Source: Candidatus Obscuribacter sp. | Lineage (GTDB): Bacteria; Cyanobacteriota; Vampirovibrionia; Obscuribacterales; Obscuribacteraceae | Length of the DNA: 64,000 nucleotides | Assembly: GCA_021772135.1 (NCBI GenBank) | Contig: JADYXQ010000138.1 | Location: 1 to 64,000, forward strand | Reading direction: 5' to 3' | Shown: piece after piece, positions 29,578 through 45,079 of the stretch | Position numbering within the stretch: the stretch's first letter is position 1 | Layout: each line of letters opens with the position of its first letter | Made by a program: the position numbers and the translations under genes | Notes under the pieces: generated by a model | What the model saw: only the letters and a program-made list of their open reading frames with translations | What the model was told of the DNA's origin: nothing | Databases searched by the model: none

Positions 29578-30618
29578 ATGGATGCCAAAGAATTCGAGAA
29601 CAAAATCGACGGCCTGGTGAGCGCTGCTCTTTCAGCCATAGAATCGACCGCTAGTTTAGACGGTCTGGAAAATTTGAGATTGCAATATCTGGGTCGAGAA
29701 GGCGAATTGACCGTGATTCTACGCGGCCTCGCCAGCCTTGATAAAGCATTCCGGCCCACTGCCGGCCAGCTGGGCAACCAGGCCAAGCAAAAAATCGAAC
29801 AAAGTCATGAGGGAAAACGCAAATATCTTTACGAGGCCGGTTTGACAGAACGCATGGCCCGCGAAGCAATCGATGTTACCGCCCCTGGTGCTCGCTATCC
29901 CATCGGCCATGTCCATCCACTTTCGCAAATCAGCAGTGAAATCATCAGCATTTTCTACAGCATGGGCTTTTCGGTTGCCGACGGCCCTGAAGTAGAAACC
30001 GACTACTATAATTTCGACGCACTGAACACCCCCGCCTCGCATCCCGCTCGCGATGAGCAAGATACTTTTTACACAAACATGGGTCCGTCAGTGCTTTTGC
30101 GCAGTCAGACATCGACAGTGCAAATTCGCGTTATGGAAAATAATAAGCCTCCCTTGCGCATCATTGCGCCCGGTCGCGTTTATCGCAATGAAGAGGTAAA
30201 CGCGCGCAAATACCCGCTCTTTCACCAGGTGGAAGGTTTGCTAATTGATCGCGACGTTACTTTCGGCCAACTGAAAGGCACGCTTTCCGCCTTCATTCAG
30301 GCTCTTTTTAAAAAGCCTTTAAAAGTGCGATTTCGTCCGGACTTTTTCCCTTTCACCGAACCCAGCGCTGAACTCGATAGCGAATGCCCTTTTTGCAACG
30401 GTAAAGGCTGTAAGACTTGCGGCGGACGCGGTTGGCTTGAACTTTTAGGTTGCGGCATGGTCGATCCAAATGTGCTCAAAGGGGTCGGAATTGATCCTGA
30501 AGAATTTAGTGGATTTGCCTTTGGCATGGGGCTAGAACGGCTGGCCATGCTCAAATACGATATCAATGATATTCGCAATTTTTATACTAATGATTTGCGT
30601 TTTCTGGAGCAGTTCTAA
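29578..30618 (+). CDS. pheS: Phenylalanyl-tRNA synthetase alpha subunit
   Basis: 346 residues. N-terminal coiled coil, then class II motifs: HPLSQISSEIISIFYSMGF, FDALNTPASHPARDEQDTFY, APGRVYRNEEVNARKYPLFH and ELLGCGMVDPNVL. A CPFC...CKTC cluster just before the last motif could bind zinc, as in some PheS proteins. Forms an alpha2-beta2 enzyme with PheT, whose ATG follows immediately after the stop. Confidence 0.99.
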   Translation: MDAKEFENKIDGLVSAALSAIESTASLDGLENLRLQYLGREGELTVILRGLASLDKAFRPTAGQLGNQAKQKIEQSHEGKRKYLYEAGLTERMAREAIDVTAPGARYPIGHVHPLSQISSEIISIFYSMGFSVADGPEVETDYYNFDALNTPASHPARDEQDTFYTNMGPSVLLRSQTSTVQIRVMENNKPPLRIIAPGRVYRNEEVNARKYPLFHQVEGLLIDRDVTFGQLKGTLSAFIQALFKKPLKVRFRPDFFPFTEPSAELDSECPFCNGKGCKTCGGRGWLELLGCGMVDPNVLKGVGIDPEEFSGFAFGMGLERLAMLKYDINDIRNFYTNDLRFLEQF

Positions 30619-33186
30619 ATGAAACTTTCATTCGACTGGCTGTCTGAGTTTGTTGATCTCAGTGGCCTTACCGCTCATCAGGTGGCCGAAAAGCTCACCA
30701 TGGGAGCCTTTGAAGTAGAAGAAGTAACCCTGGTAGGGCCTGACTTGACCGGTCCTATTGTTGTGGGCGAAATTCTCGAAATTACTCAGCATCCCAATGC
30801 CGACAAAATCAGATTGACTAAAACCCGCATCAAGGTAGGCGCTGAGCCTCTCGATATCGTATGTGGTGCCGGCAATATTGAAGTAGGCCAATTAATACCA
30901 GTGGCATTGGCCGGCGCTAAAGTAATTAATCGCCATGACGGATCGCCGCTTTTAATCAAGGCTTCCGCCATAAGAGGCGTGCAATCAAACGGTATGCTTT
31001 GTTCGCCGCCTGAGTTGGGCATCACCGATAGTGCCACCAAAGACGGCATTTTAATTCTCAATGCCAATGGTGAGAAGCCCGAACTGGGAAGCGACATTCT
31101 CCAGTTGCTGCCCATTCAACGAGACTTTATTTTGCACGTAGAGCCGCGCTCCAACCGTGGTGACGCTCTTTCAGTTATGGGTCTGGCTCGCGAAGTTGCC
31201 GCCCTCTTTGGCCGTCCGTTAAAACCAGCCACCTGGTCGTTAAGCGAACTAAAAACCGATGCCACCAAATCTAAATTCAATAATGTAGTGATCGAATCTG
31301 CTCCAGAAGATTGTCCGTTTATCACCTTGCGCGTTCTTGAAGGCATCAAAATTGGTCCGTCTCATCCGCTCATATCCACACGGCTCACCGCTATCGGCAT
31401 GCGCACAGTCAATAATGTGGTAGACATCACTAATTACGTCATGCATGAACTGGGTCAACCGCTCCATGCTTATGACCTGAAAAAAATCAAAAATGAAGCT
31501 GCTTTAACCGTTCGGCGGGCCAAAGCCGGTGAAACCATTACTACGATTGACGCTAAAGAACGCAAACTGACTGAAGAAATGCTCGTGATCGCTGACGGTG
31601 ACACTGATACCATCGTCGGTGTGGCCGGGGTGATGGGTGGAAAAGACAGCGAAATAGACGATCAGTCAGACGCTCTGGTGCTCGAAGCAGCATGCTTCGC
31701 CCCAGCGGTGGTGCGCCGCGCCTCTCGATTACTTGGTCTTTCCAGCGACGCCAGCTTGCGTTTTGAAAGAGGCATCGATCCGGCCAGTGTGCGCCACGCT
31801 GCCAATCGGGCCGCCTACCTCATAGCGAAATATTGTGGCAACGAAGCTAGTACTGCATCGCTTGGCCCCTTGCTGGCAGCCGGCTCAGATCAAGTCAGCG
31901 CCGCCAAAGTACCTTTGCGTTCGTCGCAGATAAAAAGATTGCTCGGTATTGAAATTAGCGCCGAACGCGTCGCTGAGCTGCTTACGCCGCTAGGATTTTC
32001 AGTCAGCGGAGCGGGCGAGCAAATTGAAGTAATGGTGCCAAGTTTTCGCATCAATGATGTGAAGCGCGAGATAGACTTAATTGAAGAAGTTTGCCGCTTG
32101 AATGGCTACGATCAAATTACAGCTTGCATGCCTGCAGCTACTCTGGCTGTGGCAATGCCTGATGATACTTTGCAGCTGGCCAGAAATTGTCTTACCGGCC
32201 AAGGCTTATCAGAAGCCTGGTTATCGAGCCTGGTACCAATTGATCAAGAAGGTGCGTCAATGGATCTTGCTGTGCAAGTTCTCAACCCGCTTTCTAAAGA
32301 TCACCAGCTGATGCGCCAGAGTCTCATTCCCGGTCTAATCAATGCCTGCAGTTATAACCAGGATCATGGTCGCAAAGACGTCTGGCTTTTTGAACATGGT
32401 CGGGTCTATTTCAAAGATTTTGAAAACGCGGCCGATAATCATGGTAAAAGCGGAAACAAAATTACCACCGGCGTCAAAGAAAACAATCATCTGGCTGGCC
32501 TTATCTGCGGTCAGAGTTTTAAGGCCTTCAATAAAGAAGCATTGGCAGTAGATTTTTATCTGGTCAAAGGTATGGTGGAGAATCTACTTAGTGTGCTCGA
32601 TATTGATGAGCGCAAACTTGCCTGGCATGGCTTATCGAATCACGAAGATCTTTATCCCTGGCTCCATCCTTACCGATCGGCGCTCCTTACCTTGAACCGG
32701 CCGGCCAAGCCTGCCAATAAAGGTGCGGGGAAATCAAGCAGCCTCTTTGAGAGCAATATTACTCTTGGCTACGTCGGACAATTGCATCCGCGGTTTGCCG
32801 ACAGCAAAGACGTGCGCGATCAGGCCTTTATTTTCGAACTAGATCTCGACCGCCTTAAAAAAGAGCGTAAAGCGAAGAAATTCACAGGCATTGCCACCGG
32901 CCCCGAAATGGTAAGAGACATTACTGCCGATTTTGATGTGACTGATAAAGAAGTGCTCTATGAGCAGCTCTCCAAACTGATCTGGAAAGCTGGCGGCAGC
33001 AATTTGCAAATGGTGGAACTGGTAAGCATCTACAAAGCTTCACCGGAATCCAAGCGGTCGGCCATCACTTGCAGGTTAACTTTTCAGCATGCCAATGAAC
33101 CTGTTGCCAACGAAGAAATCGACAAAGTTCTTGGCGGCATTCGAGAAAGTTTGAGCCGCGATTTGGCCGCGTCGTTTAGACTATAA
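30619..33186 (+). CDS. pheT: Phenylalanyl-tRNA synthetase beta subunit
   Basis: 855 residues, about 50 longer than most because of charged inserts near the C-terminal third. Domains in order: tRNA-binding OB fold (VVGEILEITQHPNADKIRLT), editing B3/B4 region (RVLEGIKIGPSHPLISTRL; VVDITNYVMHELGQPLHAYD), B5 (LLGIEISAERVAELLTPLGF), the catalytic-like core, and the C-terminal FDX-ACB anticodon domain. It charges tRNA-Phe and edits mischarged Tyr. No spacer separates it from pheS. Confidence 0.98.
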   Translation: MKLSFDWLSEFVDLSGLTAHQVAEKLTMGAFEVEEVTLVGPDLTGPIVVGEILEITQHPNADKIRLTKTRIKVGAEPLDIVCGAGNIEVGQLIPVALAGAKVINRHDGSPLLIKASAIRGVQSNGMLCSPPELGITDSATKDGILILNANGEKPELGSDILQLLPIQRDFILHVEPRSNRGDALSVMGLAREVAALFGRPLKPATWSLSELKTDATKSKFNNVVIESAPEDCPFITLRVLEGIKIGPSHPLISTRLTAIGMRTVNNVVDITNYVMHELGQPLHAYDLKKIKNEAALTVRRAKAGETITTIDAKERKLTEEMLVIADGDTDTIVGVAGVMGGKDSEIDDQSDALVLEAACFAPAVVRRASRLLGLSSDASLRFERGIDPASVRHAANRAAYLIAKYCGNEASTASLGPLLAAGSDQVSAAKVPLRSSQIKRLLGIEISAERVAELLTPLGFSVSGAGEQIEVMVPSFRINDVKREIDLIEEVCRLNGYDQITACMPAATLAVAMPDDTLQLARNCLTGQGLSEAWLSSLVPIDQEGASMDLAVQVLNPLSKDHQLMRQSLIPGLINACSYNQDHGRKDVWLFEHGRVYFKDFENAADNHGKSGNKITTGVKENNHLAGLICGQSFKAFNKEALAVDFYLVKGMVENLLSVLDIDERKLAWHGLSNHEDLYPWLHPYRSALLTLNRPAKPANKGAGKSSSLFESNITLGYVGQLHPRFADSKDVRDQAFIFELDLDRLKKERKAKKFTGIATGPEMVRDITADFDVTDKEVLYEQLSKLIWKAGGSNLQMVELVSIYKASPESKRSAITCRLTFQHANEPVANEEIDKVLGGIRESLSRDLAASFRL

Positions 33187-33329: not shown

Positions 33330-36300
33330 ATGTACAGGCTCAGATTCCGGAAGAGTTGGATAGGCTTGCTGGCTTTAGTCGGCGGTGCAATCATAATGAC
33401 CGTGATGCGTCTGAATCCGTTCAGTGCAGGAACGAACTTTGACCTGCCTCTACTCTGGATTCTGCCGGCTCAGATAGTTTTGCCGCTCCTCTTTGCTTTT
33501 TATCAATATCGCACCTGCCCTACTATTCAGCAGGTTGGCGCATATTGCTGGACTATCGCCATGATTAGCGCATTTGGCTTGATTGCCGATCTTTGCGTTA
33601 TGAGCGAAATCGACCGGGTCTTCCGCTTCGCTGTAATTCAAGAAGGCTGGCTCTTTCACTTTAATGCCGTGACACTCGGCTTGATGAATATTCTTGGCAT
33701 GATTGCCGCAGTCAATCTCATGCAAGCTGAACAAATAAGTAGCTTCGCCGACGCCAAGGTGGCTGAAGCTCAACTGGGACGGTTGAAGGCAGTCAAAGTC
33801 GACCCCGAAACCCAGAACAAATGGGAAAAAGCCGCCTCTCATGGTGGAGCTCAGGCCGATGGCCGCAGCTTGCGTTCTACCATGACCAACCTCAAAGCCA
33901 TAAGTTTGCAGGACCCATCGCAGAATCTCAGCGGACCTTCGCCCACTGTGCCTAGAGAAATGCCCCTGCGTACTCCTGAAAATTCAGGGGAAGCTGGCAG
34001 TCTGGCGAGCTTGCTCGACCGCATCGGCGACGAACCGGCAGCCATTGAAGGTGAAGACTCAGGTCAACATCCGACCGCAGCCTCAGTAGCTGAAGTGGCA
34101 TTTGACCCACTAGCTGCTGCTCCTGTATTTGAACCACAGTTCGATCTACTGGAAATAGCAGCTCTAGACGAAAACCCTGAACCAAAAGAAAGCGTCTCTA
34201 CCGGCATGATGGGCAGCTTCAAACCCACAAGCCAGTCAAGTAAAGAAGCAACGCCAAGCGAACCTTTTGCTACAGCCACGTCGCAAGCCAGCCCTCAAGC
34301 CAACGCCGAAGCGGCATCACAACCGAGTGTGCAGGCACAAGTAAGCGCTCAAGCGGCGGTCAACACGCCAAGCAGCTTAGAATCGCCAACAGCATCGAAC
34401 ACTCGCTTGCAGGCGATGAAGCGCAGAAACACCAGCACATTCACCAAATTACAATCACTTTCATCGAGCAGCACCGGTTCGCTTAAACCACAAGCCCTTG
34501 ACTCTACGCCGCAAGCAGAGCCTGACAGCCTGAAAAGCTTGCTCGACCGCCTCGACGATGACCACGTGCAAGAGCCTGCTCAAGCATTAACTCCTCCTGT
34601 AGAACTGGTTTTAGATACTGTCTTTAAAGAAGATGGCCATCTTGAAGTGACTGTCGCCTCATCTTCGTCATCAGTTCCTTCAGTTGACAGCATTGCTGTT
34701 TCTAAACCTGATTCAACCGGCGCTGTTCCGTCAGCGGCAGTACAGGCGGCTCTCGCCAAAGCAAAAGAAATGGCTGCAGCAGAGGCAGAAGCAGAAGCGG
34801 CAGCTGAAGTAGGTAGCTCAAGCGGCAATCATTCCAGCTTGAGCGATCGCTTAACGGCCTCCAGCGCCATTGAAGCTCCATCTCTGGCTAACTTGCTCGA
34901 TACCGCAGAACCTAATGCCGAGCTGGTTGAAGACGAAGAACCAGAAGCACTATTCGCCGGTGGTGTTGATAAAGACATCGATAATCTCTTCTCTGATCTA
35001 GCTCCAGCGGAAGCGCAAAAAGTAGTAGAAGGTTCTGAGTTTGCTCGTATTGACGAAACTGAAGCAGCAAGTGAAGCTATCGAGACGCCGGCGTTTGAAC
35101 TTAATCCTTTACTCAGTGCCCCTCTGGAAAACGCTCAAGATCAAATTAGCGAACCAGCGAGTTTCTCTGGTGCAGACGAAGCTGAAGTGGAAGAAGAATC
35201 AACAGGCCTGTTTGAAGGCGGCGTAGATTCTGATATTGACGATATATTCTCCGAACTGGCACCACCTGAAGCTCAAAAAGAAGTCGGTCAGGTTCTCGCT
35301 AAGAGCGATGCCAGTGACGTCGATGCCGATGTCGCCGGTATGATTTCGAACTTGTCTGCACAACAAGCCGCAGCTGACGATAGTGATGACGATGAATCTA
35401 CAGGCACCTTATTTGGTGCCGGCGTCGACTCAGATATCGACAACATTTTCTCAGAGTTAGCACCGCCTGAAGCTCTTATGGAAGTTAAGGATGTCCTTAA
35501 ACCCAGAGCCGAAGCCGCACCTGAAGTGGCCGCGAGAGTTGAAGACTTTAGCGTTCCTGAAGCTGAAGCTGCCGAAGATCAAGAAGAAGGTCTGTTTGGT
35601 GAAACTTTAGGCGAAGATCTCGACAATTTATTCTCTGAATTGACTGATGATAAACAGCTAGAAGTAAGCCCCGAAACTCTAGCGAAAGTCAAAGGCACCA
35701 TCGTCGAAGAAGAAACTGCACCTCTTGCAAAAGCTCCGGCCAAGCCACCTTCGCCCCGTGCCACTGGTGACATGCCGGCCCTCAGTGCCGAGCAAGCTGA
35801 AGAAATCAAAGACGCAGTAGAAGAATCGGTGGTCGAAGCATCGGTAGCAGAAGAAAAAGTTGCGGCAAAAGCTGACGATAAAAAAGATAACGATCCAAAA
35901 GGTCCTAATTACAAAGAAGTAAAAGAATTTGGTCGCCTCTCGACCCGCTCCGGTTCGCTCAAATCAGCACCGGAAACCGTAGGCACCATGAAGACCATCG
36001 GCAAGCTTCTGCTTGACGTAAAAGCCGTAGAGAACATCATAAAGAGCGGTGAGAACAGAAAAATCGGCAGCGGCCTTTCAACAGCCAAAGTAATCAGTGC
36101 TGCTCGCGGTGAAGGCATCAAACAAATTCTCGTCACCATCGATTCGTATGAAGGCGTAGCCGGCAGTTTAATCGTCGGTCATGACGGCCTGGTAATTGCT
36201 TCTACAGTTGGCCAGGGCTGGGACAAAGACATGCTCGGTGCGCTTTCTACTGCTCTGCTTTCCACGTCCAACCTGGCAACTAAAAAGCTAGAAATCGGCA

Positions 36301-36476
36301 AACTAAAGCAGATGGTCTTACTGACCAAGCTGACTACCGATGAAGGCGATGTGCTCAAGAGCACTTTGCTGACAGACGTAGAAGTCGGTATTTTAGCCGT
36401 GTTCATTGAGCAGACCGACTTGTCTAAAATCGATGGCCTGCTTGAGACAATTCAAAAAACCATTCACGGCACTTAA
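33330..36476 (+). CDS. Large membrane protein with acidic repeats and a C-terminal Roadblock/LC7 domain
   Basis: 1048 residues. About four membrane helices lie in residues 1-130. A long Ala/Glu/Ser/Pro-rich, probably disordered region (135-900) carries two motif families: SLASLLDR, SLKSLLDR and SLANLLDT near 223, 400 and 517; and GGVDKDIDNLFSDLAP, GGVDSDIDDIFSELAPPEAQ, AGVDSDIDNIFSELAPPEAL and LGEDLDNLFSEL near 544, 629, 698 and 757. The last 120 residues form a Roadblock/LC7-like domain (ILVTIDSYEGVAGSLIVGHD, GLVIASTVGQGWDKDMLGAL). Roadblock proteins such as MglB regulate small GTPases and polarity. No GTPase is adjacent. The whole architecture is unfamiliar to me. ATG chosen; ribosome site weak. 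A TATAAA at 33272 may be its -10. Confidence 0.85.
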   Translation: MYRLRFRKSWIGLLALVGGAIIMTVMRLNPFSAGTNFDLPLLWILPAQIVLPLLFAFYQYRTCPTIQQVGAYCWTIAMISAFGLIADLCVMSEIDRVFRFAVIQEGWLFHFNAVTLGLMNILGMIAAVNLMQAEQISSFADAKVAEAQLGRLKAVKVDPETQNKWEKAASHGGAQADGRSLRSTMTNLKAISLQDPSQNLSGPSPTVPREMPLRTPENSGEAGSLASLLDRIGDEPAAIEGEDSGQHPTAASVAEVAFDPLAAAPVFEPQFDLLEIAALDENPEPKESVSTGMMGSFKPTSQSSKEATPSEPFATATSQASPQANAEAASQPSVQAQVSAQAAVNTPSSLESPTASNTRLQAMKRRNTSTFTKLQSLSSSSTGSLKPQALDSTPQAEPDSLKSLLDRLDDDHVQEPAQALTPPVELVLDTVFKEDGHLEVTVASSSSSVPSVDSIAVSKPDSTGAVPSAAVQAALAKAKEMAAAEAEAEAAAEVGSSSGNHSSLSDRLTASSAIEAPSLANLLDTAEPNAELVEDEEPEALFAGGVDKDIDNLFSDLAPAEAQKVVEGSEFARIDETEAASEAIETPAFELNPLLSAPLENAQDQISEPASFSGADEAEVEEESTGLFEGGVDSDIDDIFSELAPPEAQKEVGQVLAKSDASDVDADVAGMISNLSAQQAAADDSDDDESTGTLFGAGVDSDIDNIFSELAPPEALMEVKDVLKPRAEAAPEVAARVEDFSVPEAEAAEDQEEGLFGETLGEDLDNLFSELTDDKQLEVSPETLAKVKGTIVEEETAPLAKAPAKPPSPRATGDMPALSAEQAEEIKDAVEESVVEASVAEEKVAAKADDKKDNDPKGPNYKEVKEFGRLSTRSGSLKSAPETVGTMKTIGKLLLDVKAVENIIKSGENRKIGSGLSTAKVISAARGEGIKQILVTIDSYEGVAGSLIVGHDGLVIASTVGQGWDKDMLGALSTALLSTSNLATKKLEIGKLKQMVLLTKLTTDEGDVLKSTLLTDVEVGILAVFIEQTDLSKIDGLLETIQKTIHGT

Positions 36477-40734: not shown

Positions 40735-43074
40735 ATGAATTCTTCCGCCATCACTCATGACAAACAAAGCCGTCTTTTCGGGCTTTTCGCCGTTATCATC
40801 ATTGTTTTAGCCAATTGGCTTGCTTACAGCAATTGTTTCAATGGTTACTTTCTGGCCGACGATTTTGTCCACGTAGACTATCTTTATCACGCCATATCAA
40901 AACAGTTTCAACCTCTTCTAGCCAACTTCTGGGGCAACTGGATGCAGGCTCAGGGCACGACTTTCTATCGACCGCTGATTTCAGTCACTCTGGCTCTCGA
41001 TTATTTAGTCGGTGGTCCACACCCATTTATTTTTCACTTCACAAACTGGCTTTATCAGACTGCTGCCAGTTGCCTGACATTTCTTTTAGTCAGGCGCATC
41101 GGCGCCGCTTTCAGACCGGGTCAAATGCAGCTAAACCAAAATCTGTCTCTGGCCGCCGCCCTTGTTTTTAGTTTCTATCCGCTCCACAGCGAAGTGGTCA
41201 ACTGGATTATCGCCCGGGTTGACAGCGTTGCGCTCACTTTTTGCCTGGCTTCGTTCTGGCTCTATTTAAAAAACGACAAACCATCTCCCTGGGCAGCCAG
41301 AGCCAGTTTACTAGCGTTCATTTGTGGCCTGATGTCGAAAGAAATGGCAGTCACTCTGCCGCCAACGCTTTTGCTTTTTCGCTTGCTGACTAATTTTGCG
41401 CCAGAGCAAGAACAGTTGAAACCGTGGCAGCGTATCAAACTAGCCCTGAAACAGACTTTGCCTTACTGGATTATTCTGGCCTGTTATTTTGTCTTCCGCC
41501 TGCTGGTGTTAGGCACCATATCCGGAGGCTATGAAGGTTCAGTCGGCCACAGCCTTTCCAGCAGCATGGGGCGGCGCTGGCTTGACGGCTCACTCTGGCG
41601 CATACTCTACCCGTTCAATATCGAAGTGTTCGGCGCTAAACATAATTTCAACGGGCAGCTGCGCATTATCTATCTGGCCATGGTAGCCAATTTCGCCGTG
41701 TTGCTCATTACTTCAAAAGAGCGCTCAGCCGCGGTGCGCGGTCTGCTTTTCGGCCTGGGCTGGCTGGTACTGGCACTTTTGCCCACCTATCAAGTCTGGA
41801 ATTTAACTGATTCCCTGCAAGGGGGCCGCCTGATTTATTACGGTACCGCACCTATCGCTTTGATTTTCGCCTGGCTGCTTTTTCCCGGCGACGGCGTTTT
41901 TGCCAGAGCGGTAACCACTTTGCGATATATTCTAGCCACCTGGTTCTGCACACTATTACTTCTAATTACCCATGGAAACAACCAGCCCTGGACCTCCGCA
42001 ATGCAGGAAGTGAGCCGCTTTCGTCAGGCCGTGGCCGACAAGATTTTGCAACTGCCCCCTGGTCAATCTCTTTGTCTAATCAATGTGCCCCAGACCTATC
42101 GCGGCGCTCACATGCTCTATAACGCCGCCACCATGTCAGTGCTTTTGAGCCCTCCCTTAACTGAAAAAGCAGTCTATCAGAGGGTCAAGAGCTTCGAGCC
42201 GGCAACATTCGGCGACTCTGACCTGGTAAACATTTCACGCGTCAGAACTCTATGCGCTGACAAGAGCAACCAGTTCATGCGCTGGGACAGGCAAAAAATG
42301 CAATTGCTTGCCGTGCCGCTCACATGTAAACAGACATCGCTCGCGGCCCCACAGCGGGCTGTACCACAAGCGGCCGAAGGTCTTGACTCTACACGTGCGA
42401 TTCTATCGCCTGAGCTGAAAATGGATGTGCTTGATTGTGACTACATTGATATCAAATACGGTGGCGGCAAAAATGCGGGTAAAGCTGTTTTAATTTTAGA
42501 AGCGTTCAATATCGAAGGCGATCGAGCAGCTTTAAGTTTGCCATTAAATAAGAGTATCGATGGCCGTTTGCGCTTTCAAGTTTCAGAGCACAAACAATGG
42601 TTGGCTCTCAACCGCGTCAATCAAATAGTTCTATCTTTACAATCTCCCGTGGCGGCCGAACCTTTGACAATTAGCGCACTGGAATTCGGCGCTCTAACAA
42701 CAAAGCGGCCCATACTTAAATGTGATGGCATCACCCTGGTGGAGGATATTGACGGCATTTGCCGCCCACGAGGACAGGTGGAGCGCTCGGCCTTTTCATA
42801 CGATGCCAGTAATGTGGCGGGGGCAGCGACGGTCTATTATGAGGTATCAAAACCAAACAGTTGGTTTGAACATTACAGCGGCACTTTAAGAGACAATCAG
42901 CAAAGTGACGAAGCACAGTTTACAGGTACCCTGGCCAAGCTCAAGGGTAGTGCCATTCCCATAACTTTTTCTGGCTTAAAAGGTCATGGTTTTTACCAGT
43001 TACGGTTAGCGGCACTAGACGAGAAAGGCAAATTAGTCGGCTACTTCAGTGACCCTCTGAATTTTCACATTTAA
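40735..43074 (+). CDS. GT-C-type membrane glycosyltransferase
   Basis: 779 residues. About 11 membrane helices in the first 420 residues. GT-C signature: acidic pair in the first loop, NGYFLADDFVHVDYLY (Asp42, Asp43), and FYRPLISVTLALDYL, FYPLHSEVVNWIIARVDSVA. The C-terminal 350 residues form a soluble, beta-rich extracytoplasmic domain. Enzymes of this fold use polyprenyl-phosphate sugars to glycosylate proteins or lipids on the outer face of the membrane. Close to the TMTC/PMT-like family. First of three plus-strand genes with spacings of 7 and -4 bases. Confidence 0.8.
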   Translation: MNSSAITHDKQSRLFGLFAVIIIVLANWLAYSNCFNGYFLADDFVHVDYLYHAISKQFQPLLANFWGNWMQAQGTTFYRPLISVTLALDYLVGGPHPFIFHFTNWLYQTAASCLTFLLVRRIGAAFRPGQMQLNQNLSLAAALVFSFYPLHSEVVNWIIARVDSVALTFCLASFWLYLKNDKPSPWAARASLLAFICGLMSKEMAVTLPPTLLLFRLLTNFAPEQEQLKPWQRIKLALKQTLPYWIILACYFVFRLLVLGTISGGYEGSVGHSLSSSMGRRWLDGSLWRILYPFNIEVFGAKHNFNGQLRIIYLAMVANFAVLLITSKERSAAVRGLLFGLGWLVLALLPTYQVWNLTDSLQGGRLIYYGTAPIALIFAWLLFPGDGVFARAVTTLRYILATWFCTLLLLITHGNNQPWTSAMQEVSRFRQAVADKILQLPPGQSLCLINVPQTYRGAHMLYNAATMSVLLSPPLTEKAVYQRVKSFEPATFGDSDLVNISRVRTLCADKSNQFMRWDRQKMQLLAVPLTCKQTSLAAPQRAVPQAAEGLDSTRAILSPELKMDVLDCDYIDIKYGGGKNAGKAVLILEAFNIEGDRAALSLPLNKSIDGRLRFQVSEHKQWLALNRVNQIVLSLQSPVAAEPLTISALEFGALTTKRPILKCDGITLVEDIDGICRPRGQVERSAFSYDASNVAGAATVYYEVSKPNSWFEHYSGTLRDNQQSDEAQFTGTLAKLKGSAIPITFSGLKGHGFYQLRLAALDEKGKLVGYFSDPLNFHI

Positions 43075-43081
43075 GTGAGCA

Positions 43082-45079
43082 ATGACCCAGCAAACATCAA
43101 TTAGTGAATTACAAAAAAGAAGGCTGGCGCCGTCGTCTGTGGACCTTGCCTCGACAAAAACGCAGATGCTTTTAGGCTCACTTTTTGTAGGTTTGTCATC
43201 GGTACTTGCGTACGCCGGCACGTTGTCGATTGGTTTTCTTGGCCAGGAAACAGCAGCGCTGCAGAGCCTGGCCAGCGCCTTGAACGGTTCTTTTTCACTT
43301 TTGCAAAGTCAGATGGAAAACCTTTGCTTTTTAGACTATTCAATTTTTCACGGCAATTATGCCGGTTATCACTGCGTCAATATTTTGCTGGCAACGGTTT
43401 GCGCTATTTTTGTCGGCCTTATAGCTCTTGAATTAACAGGTCGTCTCGGTAACCGCAATGGCGCTGTGACGGCTTTCTGGGCCGGATTACTGTTCTCCGT
43501 TTATCCTCTGCACGCCGCCACATTGGCACCAGTTATTGGCCGCTATGAAATTTTAGGTGCGCTCTTTTATCTGATTTCGTTATTTCTATTTTTACGCTAT
43601 CGCCTGATTGAAGAAAAGAAGCTCTATCTGTTGTCGCTCTTGAGCGCGGCAATAGCCCTGCTGTGCCAGCCTCAGTCACTCACTCTGGCAGTGGTGATAA
43701 CGGCCTTTGCCATTCATCCGGCTGTGCCGCCCTTTGCCGCAGAAAGAAATTCCAGTGCCTTTAAATGCAGTGCGCCCTACTGGTTATTGAATTTGCTTGC
43801 CTGGTTTTTCCTCTGGTCGCACAATGAGACAAATATCTTCGATTTTAAGCAGATCGACAAAAATATTATTTTGCAAATTTTCGTACCGGTCAATCAAAGT
43901 ATTACCACAAACAATATTTTGATTGCTGTAGTTCCACTGGCAGCCGCTCTGGTAGTGCTTCTATTGAAGTCGGTCATTGCCGGACAACGCAGTGACACTG
44001 GGGCTGAAATTGGTACTAAAAGTATACAGCCGCCCAGTTCAACTATCACTTGTATGATTTTGCTGCTCTGGTTGGCCCTCTCGACATTGCTTAGCGCCGG
44101 TGATCATTATTTTCTCAGCGCTGCACCACTGTCGATTTTGCTTGCCCTTTGCGCTCTGGAGAGCGGTAATAACAGCAGCAGCAAAGCGAAGATGCTCTTT
44201 GTCTGCGGCTTGGTAGCTTTAAGTAGTCTCTACCTTTCGTGGAGCTACCTGCTTACTCTCAATCTCAAACCATTTATTCAAGCCAGCAAAATTGTGGATA
44301 GCTACCGCAAACAAGTAACTGTTTTGAAAATATTGCACGGCCAATTGTTATTAGTCAATTTGCCCTCCAATCGAGGCCCGGTATCACCCATAGGCAATCT
44401 AGACAACCTCAAAAGATTTCTGGCACCGCCTTTTAGTCAGACCGATATCAGCCAGAATCTGCTCTTGGTCAAAGAGAAAAATCAATACAACAAGGCGCTG
44501 CTGACCGCCGCTCGCGAATTATATTTGTGGGACAACGCCGATCAAGTAATGCTTCCCCTGCCTGTACCCAGTGCTGCAGAAGGTCAGAATAGCTATCAAT
44601 TTAGATTTACTGATTTGAATTATTTGAAAAATTGCGGCTGGCAAACGGGCTTACCGGGCCAGTGGCAAAACGCCAGCAGAGCAGAGCCTGTCATATCGCC
44701 GATGGACGGTGTGGCGAGTTTGCGAACCTTTGACCAACCGGCCATATTCTGGCTGCCCTTTAAAATTCAACATCCGATCACCAACGCAAACTTATGGTAT
44801 TTGCAGGTGCATACAGGTGACCGGAACAATAAGATCACAGTTGTCACCCGCGACGTCGACACTGCATTTGACGTCAAACATCAAGGCCTGTCTGGAGAAT
44901 CAAAAACTGACGGTCTGCTGCAGTTTAATTTAAGTGCTTCAGATACCTATATGCTCAGCCACCGCCCGCAACAGATAGGTCTTCGCCTGGGGGCCAATCA
45001 GAACATGTCAGTGACGCTAATAGAGCTCACCACTGGTACTTTATCGCAAGACAAAACAAAATTTGGAGCAAACAGATGA
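43082..45079 (+). CDS. GT-C-like membrane protein lacking the acidic pair (paralogue of its upstream neighbour)
   Basis: 665 residues, same architecture as the preceding protein: N-terminal helices, FSVYPLHAATLAPVIGRYEI matching FYPLHSEVVNWIIARVDSVA upstream, more helices, then a C-terminal beta-rich domain. At the place of the upstream LADDF the sequence reads GFLGQETAAL (Gln55, Glu56), so the catalytic Asp pair is missing. It may be a non-catalytic partner that forms a complex with its neighbour, or may use different residues. Overlaps the next gene by four bases. Confidence 0.7.
   Translation: MTQQTSISELQKRRLAPSSVDLASTKTQMLLGSLFVGLSSVLAYAGTLSIGFLGQETAALQSLASALNGSFSLLQSQMENLCFLDYSIFHGNYAGYHCVNILLATVCAIFVGLIALELTGRLGNRNGAVTAFWAGLLFSVYPLHAATLAPVIGRYEILGALFYLISLFLFLRYRLIEEKKLYLLSLLSAAIALLCQPQSLTLAVVITAFAIHPAVPPFAAERNSSAFKCSAPYWLLNLLAWFFLWSHNETNIFDFKQIDKNIILQIFVPVNQSITTNNILIAVVPLAAALVVLLLKSVIAGQRSDTGAEIGTKSIQPPSSTITCMILLLWLALSTLLSAGDHYFLSAAPLSILLALCALESGNNSSSKAKMLFVCGLVALSSLYLSWSYLLTLNLKPFIQASKIVDSYRKQVTVLKILHGQLLLVNLPSNRGPVSPIGNLDNLKRFLAPPFSQTDISQNLLLVKEKNQYNKALLTAARELYLWDNADQVMLPLPVPSAAEGQNSYQFRFTDLNYLKNCGWQTGLPGQWQNASRAEPVISPMDGVASLRTFDQPAIFWLPFKIQHPITNANLWYLQVHTGDRNNKITVVTRDVDTAFDVKHQGLSGESKTDGLLQFNLSASDTYMLSHRPQQIGLRLGANQNMSVTLIELTTGTLSQDKTKFGANR

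Follow-up and report, generated by a model that had tools for sequence, protein, structure and literature searches.

A membrane-anchored Roadblock protein with repeated motifs, a putative scaffold of MglA switches in Obscuribacterales

The bacterial Ras-like switches understood in detail are those of Myxococcus, whose Roadblock regulators are small and soluble. With regard to this picture, an open reading frame of Candidatus Obscuribacter sp. raises a question: what is the role of a Roadblock protein that comprises 1048 amino acids, appears to be fixed in the membrane and carries the same short motifs several times? The gene (33330–36476, + strand, ATG start; identified by its reading frame, Pfam profile and hydropathy) resides in a stretch of 64,000 nucleotides that, in its entirety, is termed the window in the following, and stems from an assembly of 5.9 Mb on 333 contigs. 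The encoded protein is referred to as the scaffold.

The scaffold gene follows pheS and pheT (29578–33186, + strand), which lie outside the protein itself and were established as conserved upstream neighbors by gene-order comparison, while genes for a peroxiredoxin, DsbD and a GH1 glycosidase are located downstream. Loci fetched by sequence were nearly all from uncultured Obscuribacterales, often labeled Melainabacteria, the non-photosynthetic side branch of the Cyanobacteriota; the assemblies derive from metagenomes and are in part incomplete. Small losses aside, this arrangement, downstream genes included, is retained in nearly all of 34 related loci, and the scaffold gene is therefore an ancient, vertically inherited gene of the order. 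Two adjoining large open reading frames of the window without Pfam match (40735–43074 and 43082–45079) are kept downstream in most related loci.

The original prediction had placed a Roadblock-like domain at the C-terminus. This domain (residues 921–1047; 36090–36470, + strand) was recovered by Pfam profile, AF2 fold and PDB structure matches. PF03259 matched residues 932–999 with 24.7 bits at a cut-off of 23 and reached up to 70 bits in other members. AF2 modeling of residues 861–1048 yielded the succession helix, two strands, helix, three strands, helix with a pLDDT of about 70–84 for the domain, and the leading matches in a PDB structure search with this model were all Roadblock proteins, in the order Asgard Roadblock3, p14/MP1 of Ragulator and MglB, such that a fold of another kind did not emerge. 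When a sequence profile was compared with the PDB, Asgard and dynein Roadblock chains were retrieved at E values up to 0.1 and MglB was absent; in sequence, the domain resembles Asgard Roadblock proteins more than MglB. All tests made identify the scaffold as a Roadblock protein and, judged by length, anchor and sequence, it is not an MglB.

At the opposite end of the protein, hydropathy indicated hydrophobic segments at residues 10–28, 39–57, 73–91 and 108–131, in line with the four N-terminal helices proposed earlier, i.e., four predicted transmembrane helices between residues 10 and 131 (33357–33722, + strand) whose topology is likewise predicted. As the N-terminus is basic, the positive-inside rule would place it on the inner side, and everything downstream of residue 131 is then most likely cytoplasmic. 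Residues 161–860 are rich in Ala, Ser, Glu and Asp, of low complexity and carry a net charge of -93; the acidic low-complexity region is therefore present as predicted, with a size nearer to 700 than to the 750 residues originally given. In an AF2 model of residues 526–1048 that was weak overall (mean pLDDT 53), the part formed by this arm was of low confidence. Two Ragulator-like features, namely a membrane anchor, here of four hydrophobic helices, and a long acidic low-complexity arm with low pLDDT, are consequently both present. A conserved extension of about 60 residues with the core IGKLLLDVKAVENIIK (residues 859–920; 35904–36089, + strand), delimited by conservation, precedes the Roadblock domain. 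Pfam contains no family for it (one unrelated match at 0.1 was disregarded); an assignment to the c-di-GMP-binding GspE/MshE N-terminal type was considered and dropped, as Pfam gives no such match.

Two families of short motifs recur along the arm (all + strand). Three SLxxLLDR motifs had been announced and three were found by pattern and shuffle comparison: SLASLLDR at residues 224–231 (33999–34022), SLKSLLDR at residues 400–407 (34527–34550; 80% mean identity) and, supported also by conservation, a third copy at residues 518–525 (34881–34904) that reads SLANLLDT and does not end in LLDR. The second family, originally described as four GVDxDIDNIFSELAPPEA-like motifs, comprises the copies LF..DIDNLFSDL (34950–35030; motif profile E 4.9e-14), LF..DIDDIFSEL (35208–35288; E 1.0e-15), LF..DIDNIFSEL (35409–35492; E 4.4e-15) and LF..DLDNLFSEL (35592–35675; E 1.2e-9), the last of which (LGEDLDNLFSELTDDKQ) deviates from the others in lacking the APPEA tail. 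The DIDNIFSEL-type motifs start at residues 549, 635, 702 and 763, and the resulting spacing of 86, 67 and 61 residues is close to the 60–85 residues first given.

Compared with the window protein, 14 orthologues showed a mean identity of 60–73% for the LF...DIDxIFS motifs as opposed to 16–31% for the linkers between and beside them; for the C-terminal region it was 80% and for the SLxxLLD motifs 49–80%. A single DIDxIF regular expression, with which the linkers of 27 relatives from the order were searched, detected 53 copies vs. a mean of 0.02 after shuffling, and the SLLDR pattern 36 copies vs. 0.16 in 28 relatives, being confined to the nearer ones. The copies are hence conserved in most homologues, as the original prediction required, and both this conservation and the comparison with shuffled linkers rule out chance or neutral low-complexity repeats. 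According to AF2, each DIDxIF motif forms a short, weak helix without defined contact within a disordered arm, which is what might be expected of a segment that folds upon binding. Docking of the motifs onto the protein's own Roadblock domain was not seen in the weak monomer model of residues 526–1048. All observations would fit a role of the motifs in docking several copies of one partner, which is put forward here as putative.

A profile of the motif, built from copies that included those found here, returned exactly seven matches from the entire 5.9 Mb genome (E ≤ 2.4e-9), and none of the next ones was better than 0.6; since the profile derives from these very copies, the informative point is the absence of other matches. 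Four of the seven fall into the window scaffold and three into a second long Roadblock protein on contig C254 (L001/L078), which shares only the protein end with the former. Complete relatives of this paralogue (L075, L083, L085 and others) consist of a zf-HC2-like N-terminus, a Pro/Ala-rich arm, the motifs, present in the paralogue as copies of its own (LFSLTDNDLDKLFSTNLG), and a Roadblock domain. Pfam matches to the zf-HC2-like segment, an anti-sigma-type zinc finger, are weak and below cut-off, while several of the sequences clearly display the Cys-His-Cys-Cys pattern. Among 26 genomes of the order, 23 contained matches to the motif profile, and these lay in frames that also matched a Roadblock query or could be traced to either scaffold kind. 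The idea that the motif is a general genome feature was rejected by the profile searches, in which a single stray match (E 0.003) concerned a 37-residue frame from a genome outside the order. On the basis of these sequence comparisons, the motifs mark a class of Roadblock scaffolds.

Scaffolds of this kind are not confined to the order. When 244 genomes of the phylum were searched with a profile of the C-terminal region, long Roadblock proteins emerged in 13 genomes outside the class, and 12 of these 13 proteins contain related motifs in one to eight copies (MFDAGGLDSALDDLFG, LFDVDKLDSSLDDLF, MFDAGGLDSALDDLF, LFPDGVDSSLDALF). Their N-termini vary and feature either a single hydrophobic helix that follows a signal-like segment or a strongly basic, lysine-rich stretch. 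The conserved unit thus consists of the motif array, the extension and the Roadblock domain, with an exchangeable anchor. Outside the class, too, the gene lies directly after pheT in all five loci whose flank shows it. Such linkage, retained across classes of the phylum, might be taken as a hint at a role tied to phenylalanyl-tRNA synthetase. We consider this highly improbable: no domain connects the scaffold with tRNA work, pheT and the scaffold gene are separated by a gap of 143 bases with a weak terminator-like site, and the zinc-finger paralogue, which shares motifs and domain, was not seen beside pheT in its fetched loci. Gene order kept by descent suffices as an explanation.

A search for Ras/MglA-like GTPases, as suggested at the outset, proved rewarding both in the host genome and across the phylum. 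The host encodes two MglA proteins, one on contig C155 (192 residues), which aligns over its full length with Myxococcus MglA (E 3e-79), and one on contig C34 (195 residues). Two mglA genes each were also encountered in the nearly complete genomes G068 and G076, in which no long Roadblock scaffold was detected at the threshold used. The C155 protein (L072, 1477–2055) is 100% identical in six genomes/species of the genus and 92–96% identical over most of the family; with only 66–67% identity within the genus, the presumed scaffold is far less constrained than MglA. Of the 39 genomes of the order, 37 encode MglA, both exceptions being about 65% complete, vs. none of 21 genomes from other orders of the class, and matches to the scaffold query follow the same split, with a few incomplete genomes matched by the paralogue only. 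Outside the class, MglA is present in all 13 genomes with a scaffold compared to four of 30 hand-picked from those without a scaffold match (Fisher p about 7e-8, ignoring kinship). The lineages behind this co-occurrence are related to one another, and common descent may account for some of it. The scaffold gene is not adjacent to mglA. Contig C181 encodes a short stand-alone Roadblock protein of 125 residues, a candidate for a further partner.

From the above, the scaffold could be read as a simple membrane-tethered MglB, i.e., its Roadblock domain would serve as GAP or exchange factor of MglA, the arm would set the distance and the motifs would bind something minor. This would agree with the Roadblock fold, the appearance of MglB among the structure matches, the co-occurrence with MglA and the role of MglB as a Roadblock GAP of MglA (PMC9481161). 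However, the motifs are conserved across classes while linkers and anchor are not, which counts against a mere spacer, for which no motifs are needed, and the stand-alone protein of 125 residues is the better candidate for an MglB. Overall, we regard a tethered MglB as unlikely.

The reading that we prefer, with a probability of roughly one half, is that of a membrane scaffold for an MglA/Roadblock switch with a Ragulator-like design, the motifs of which gather several copies of a partner. In such a scheme, the four helices would anchor the protein in the inner membrane, from which the long acidic and disordered arm would extend into the cytoplasm. The Roadblock end would form a pair, either with a second copy of itself or with a different Roadblock protein of the cell, and the resulting dimer would contact MglA as Roadblock dimers do elsewhere. 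Indeed, Roadblock dimers are established as binding small GTPases and as acting as platforms, for example in MglB-MglA and Ragulator-Rag (PMC9481161; PMC5680233). The repeated amphipathic motifs, LFxxGVDxDIDxIFSxL joined in close relatives by SLxxLLDR, would each serve to dock a component of this module, such that one anchored protein may gather several copies of that component at a single membrane site. The partner may be a Roadblock dimer, MglA or an effector, and, as its output, the switch would likely govern a surface structure or polarity.

A special form of this main explanation assumes that the motifs constitute a self-assembly code and bind Roadblock dimers, be they formed by the scaffold itself, by the zinc-finger paralogue or by the short protein, much as helices of p18 do in Ragulator; a cross-linked membrane cluster would result, with MglA as its client. 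In the profile-scanned genomes, LFx3-5[VL]Dx1-2[ILA]Dx[IL]F-like motifs are indeed restricted to proteins that also contain a Roadblock domain, and p18 wraps Roadblock dimers with short helices (PMC5680233). In addition, each of the five proteins from other classes with five to eight motif copies (L129, L131, L132, L134, L138) is followed by a stand-alone Roadblock gene for a product of about 110 residues, which is not the case for those with one to three copies. On the other hand, one clade of the order (L031, L033, L034, L096–L099) possesses proteins with two Roadblock domains, each with its extension, the inner copies of which group together in the tree, and these duplicated forms have few or no recognizable DIDxIF motifs, i.e., fewer instead of more. 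The motifs are accordingly not essential in all members. As the AF2 monomer did not show docking on its own domain either, self-assembly is possible, though somewhat doubtful.

Within the preferred scaffold reading, effectors form another group of conceivable motif partners. PATAN (DUF4388) is found at 19 places in the host genome (e.g., L068, 909–2129), and PATAN proteins number 3–22 per genome in the order vs. 0–1 in other orders of the class. In the host, the gene for one PATAN-GGDEF fusion adjoins mglA, and in other organisms PATAN genes are likewise located near mglA or mglB (PMC4316618), which renders PATAN a notable partner candidate. Pilus-type motor ATPases are also encoded in the genome and make a pilus or polarity output plausible; for polarity, this holds by analogy with MglA of Myxococcus. 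If the motifs docked effectors such as PATAN proteins or parts of the pilus or cell-division apparatus, the Roadblock end would act as a switch input that links the state of MglA to a membrane assembly. The abundance of PATAN proteins in the order, the PATAN-GGDEF gene beside one mglA and the presence of pilus-type ATPases would fit, but the sheer number of PATAN proteins singles out no partner and a direct link between motif and PATAN was not found, leaving effector docking rather unlikely.

How does a membrane scaffold of this type compare with described systems? With MglB of Myxococcus and Thermus it has in common the Roadblock fold and the occurrence together with MglA. MglB, however, is short and soluble, with homologues of 129–179 residues (PMC4316618), unlike the membrane-anchored scaffold of 1048 residues with its motif arrays, which is not encoded beside mglA and gave no sequence match to MglB in PDB searches. 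Ragulator/LAMTOR with p18 resembles it in combining a membrane-anchored, largely extended arm with Roadblock domains to form a platform for Ras-like GTPases (PMC5680233), although p18 is lipid-anchored and devoid of a Roadblock domain of its own, whereas the scaffold joins anchor, arm, Roadblock domain and repeated motifs; homology between the two arms is not claimed. The dynein intermediate chain is described as a disordered arm whose short segments bind dimeric light chains, among them Roadblock, at several sites (PMC9771362); with neither a Roadblock domain in cis nor a GTPase, it provides an analogy only. In Streptomyces, the conservons (CvnA-D) likewise combine a small GTPase with a Roadblock protein at the membrane (PMC4316618), but in these the anchor is a histidine-kinase-like protein and the separate Roadblock protein shares one operon with the GTPase.

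NCBIfam contains no family for the scaffold or for the zinc-finger paralogue. Neither did the literature on Roadblock, MglA, MglB, PATAN and Melainabacteria, of which subscription papers were mostly outside the coverage, yield a description of such a protein, in agreement with the original failure to match it to a described one. Taken together, these comparisons suggest a place for the protein in the Roadblock/MglA world, as a membrane scaffold that bears multiple motifs and combines a known family fold with an architecture not described in the literature covered. As a tentative extension, the class might represent a phylum-wide bacterial counterpart of Ragulator, in which the motif, roughly LFx3-5[VL]Dx1-2[ILA]Dx[IL]F, would be a multi-copy ligand of Roadblock dimers or MglA and would set the number of switch complexes per membrane site.

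A deeply branching, non-photosynthetic lineage within the cyanobacterial phylum would possess a membrane scaffold that has a Roadblock domain built in and bears a defined number of putative docking motifs, and a second scaffold with a zinc-finger-like head uses the same motif. A peptide of 25 residues would allow an immediate test of the motif-binding idea. Should Roadblock dimers or MglA turn out to bind the motif, GTPase platforms composed of a scaffold plus Roadblock proteins, best known from eukaryotes, would exist in bacteria as well.
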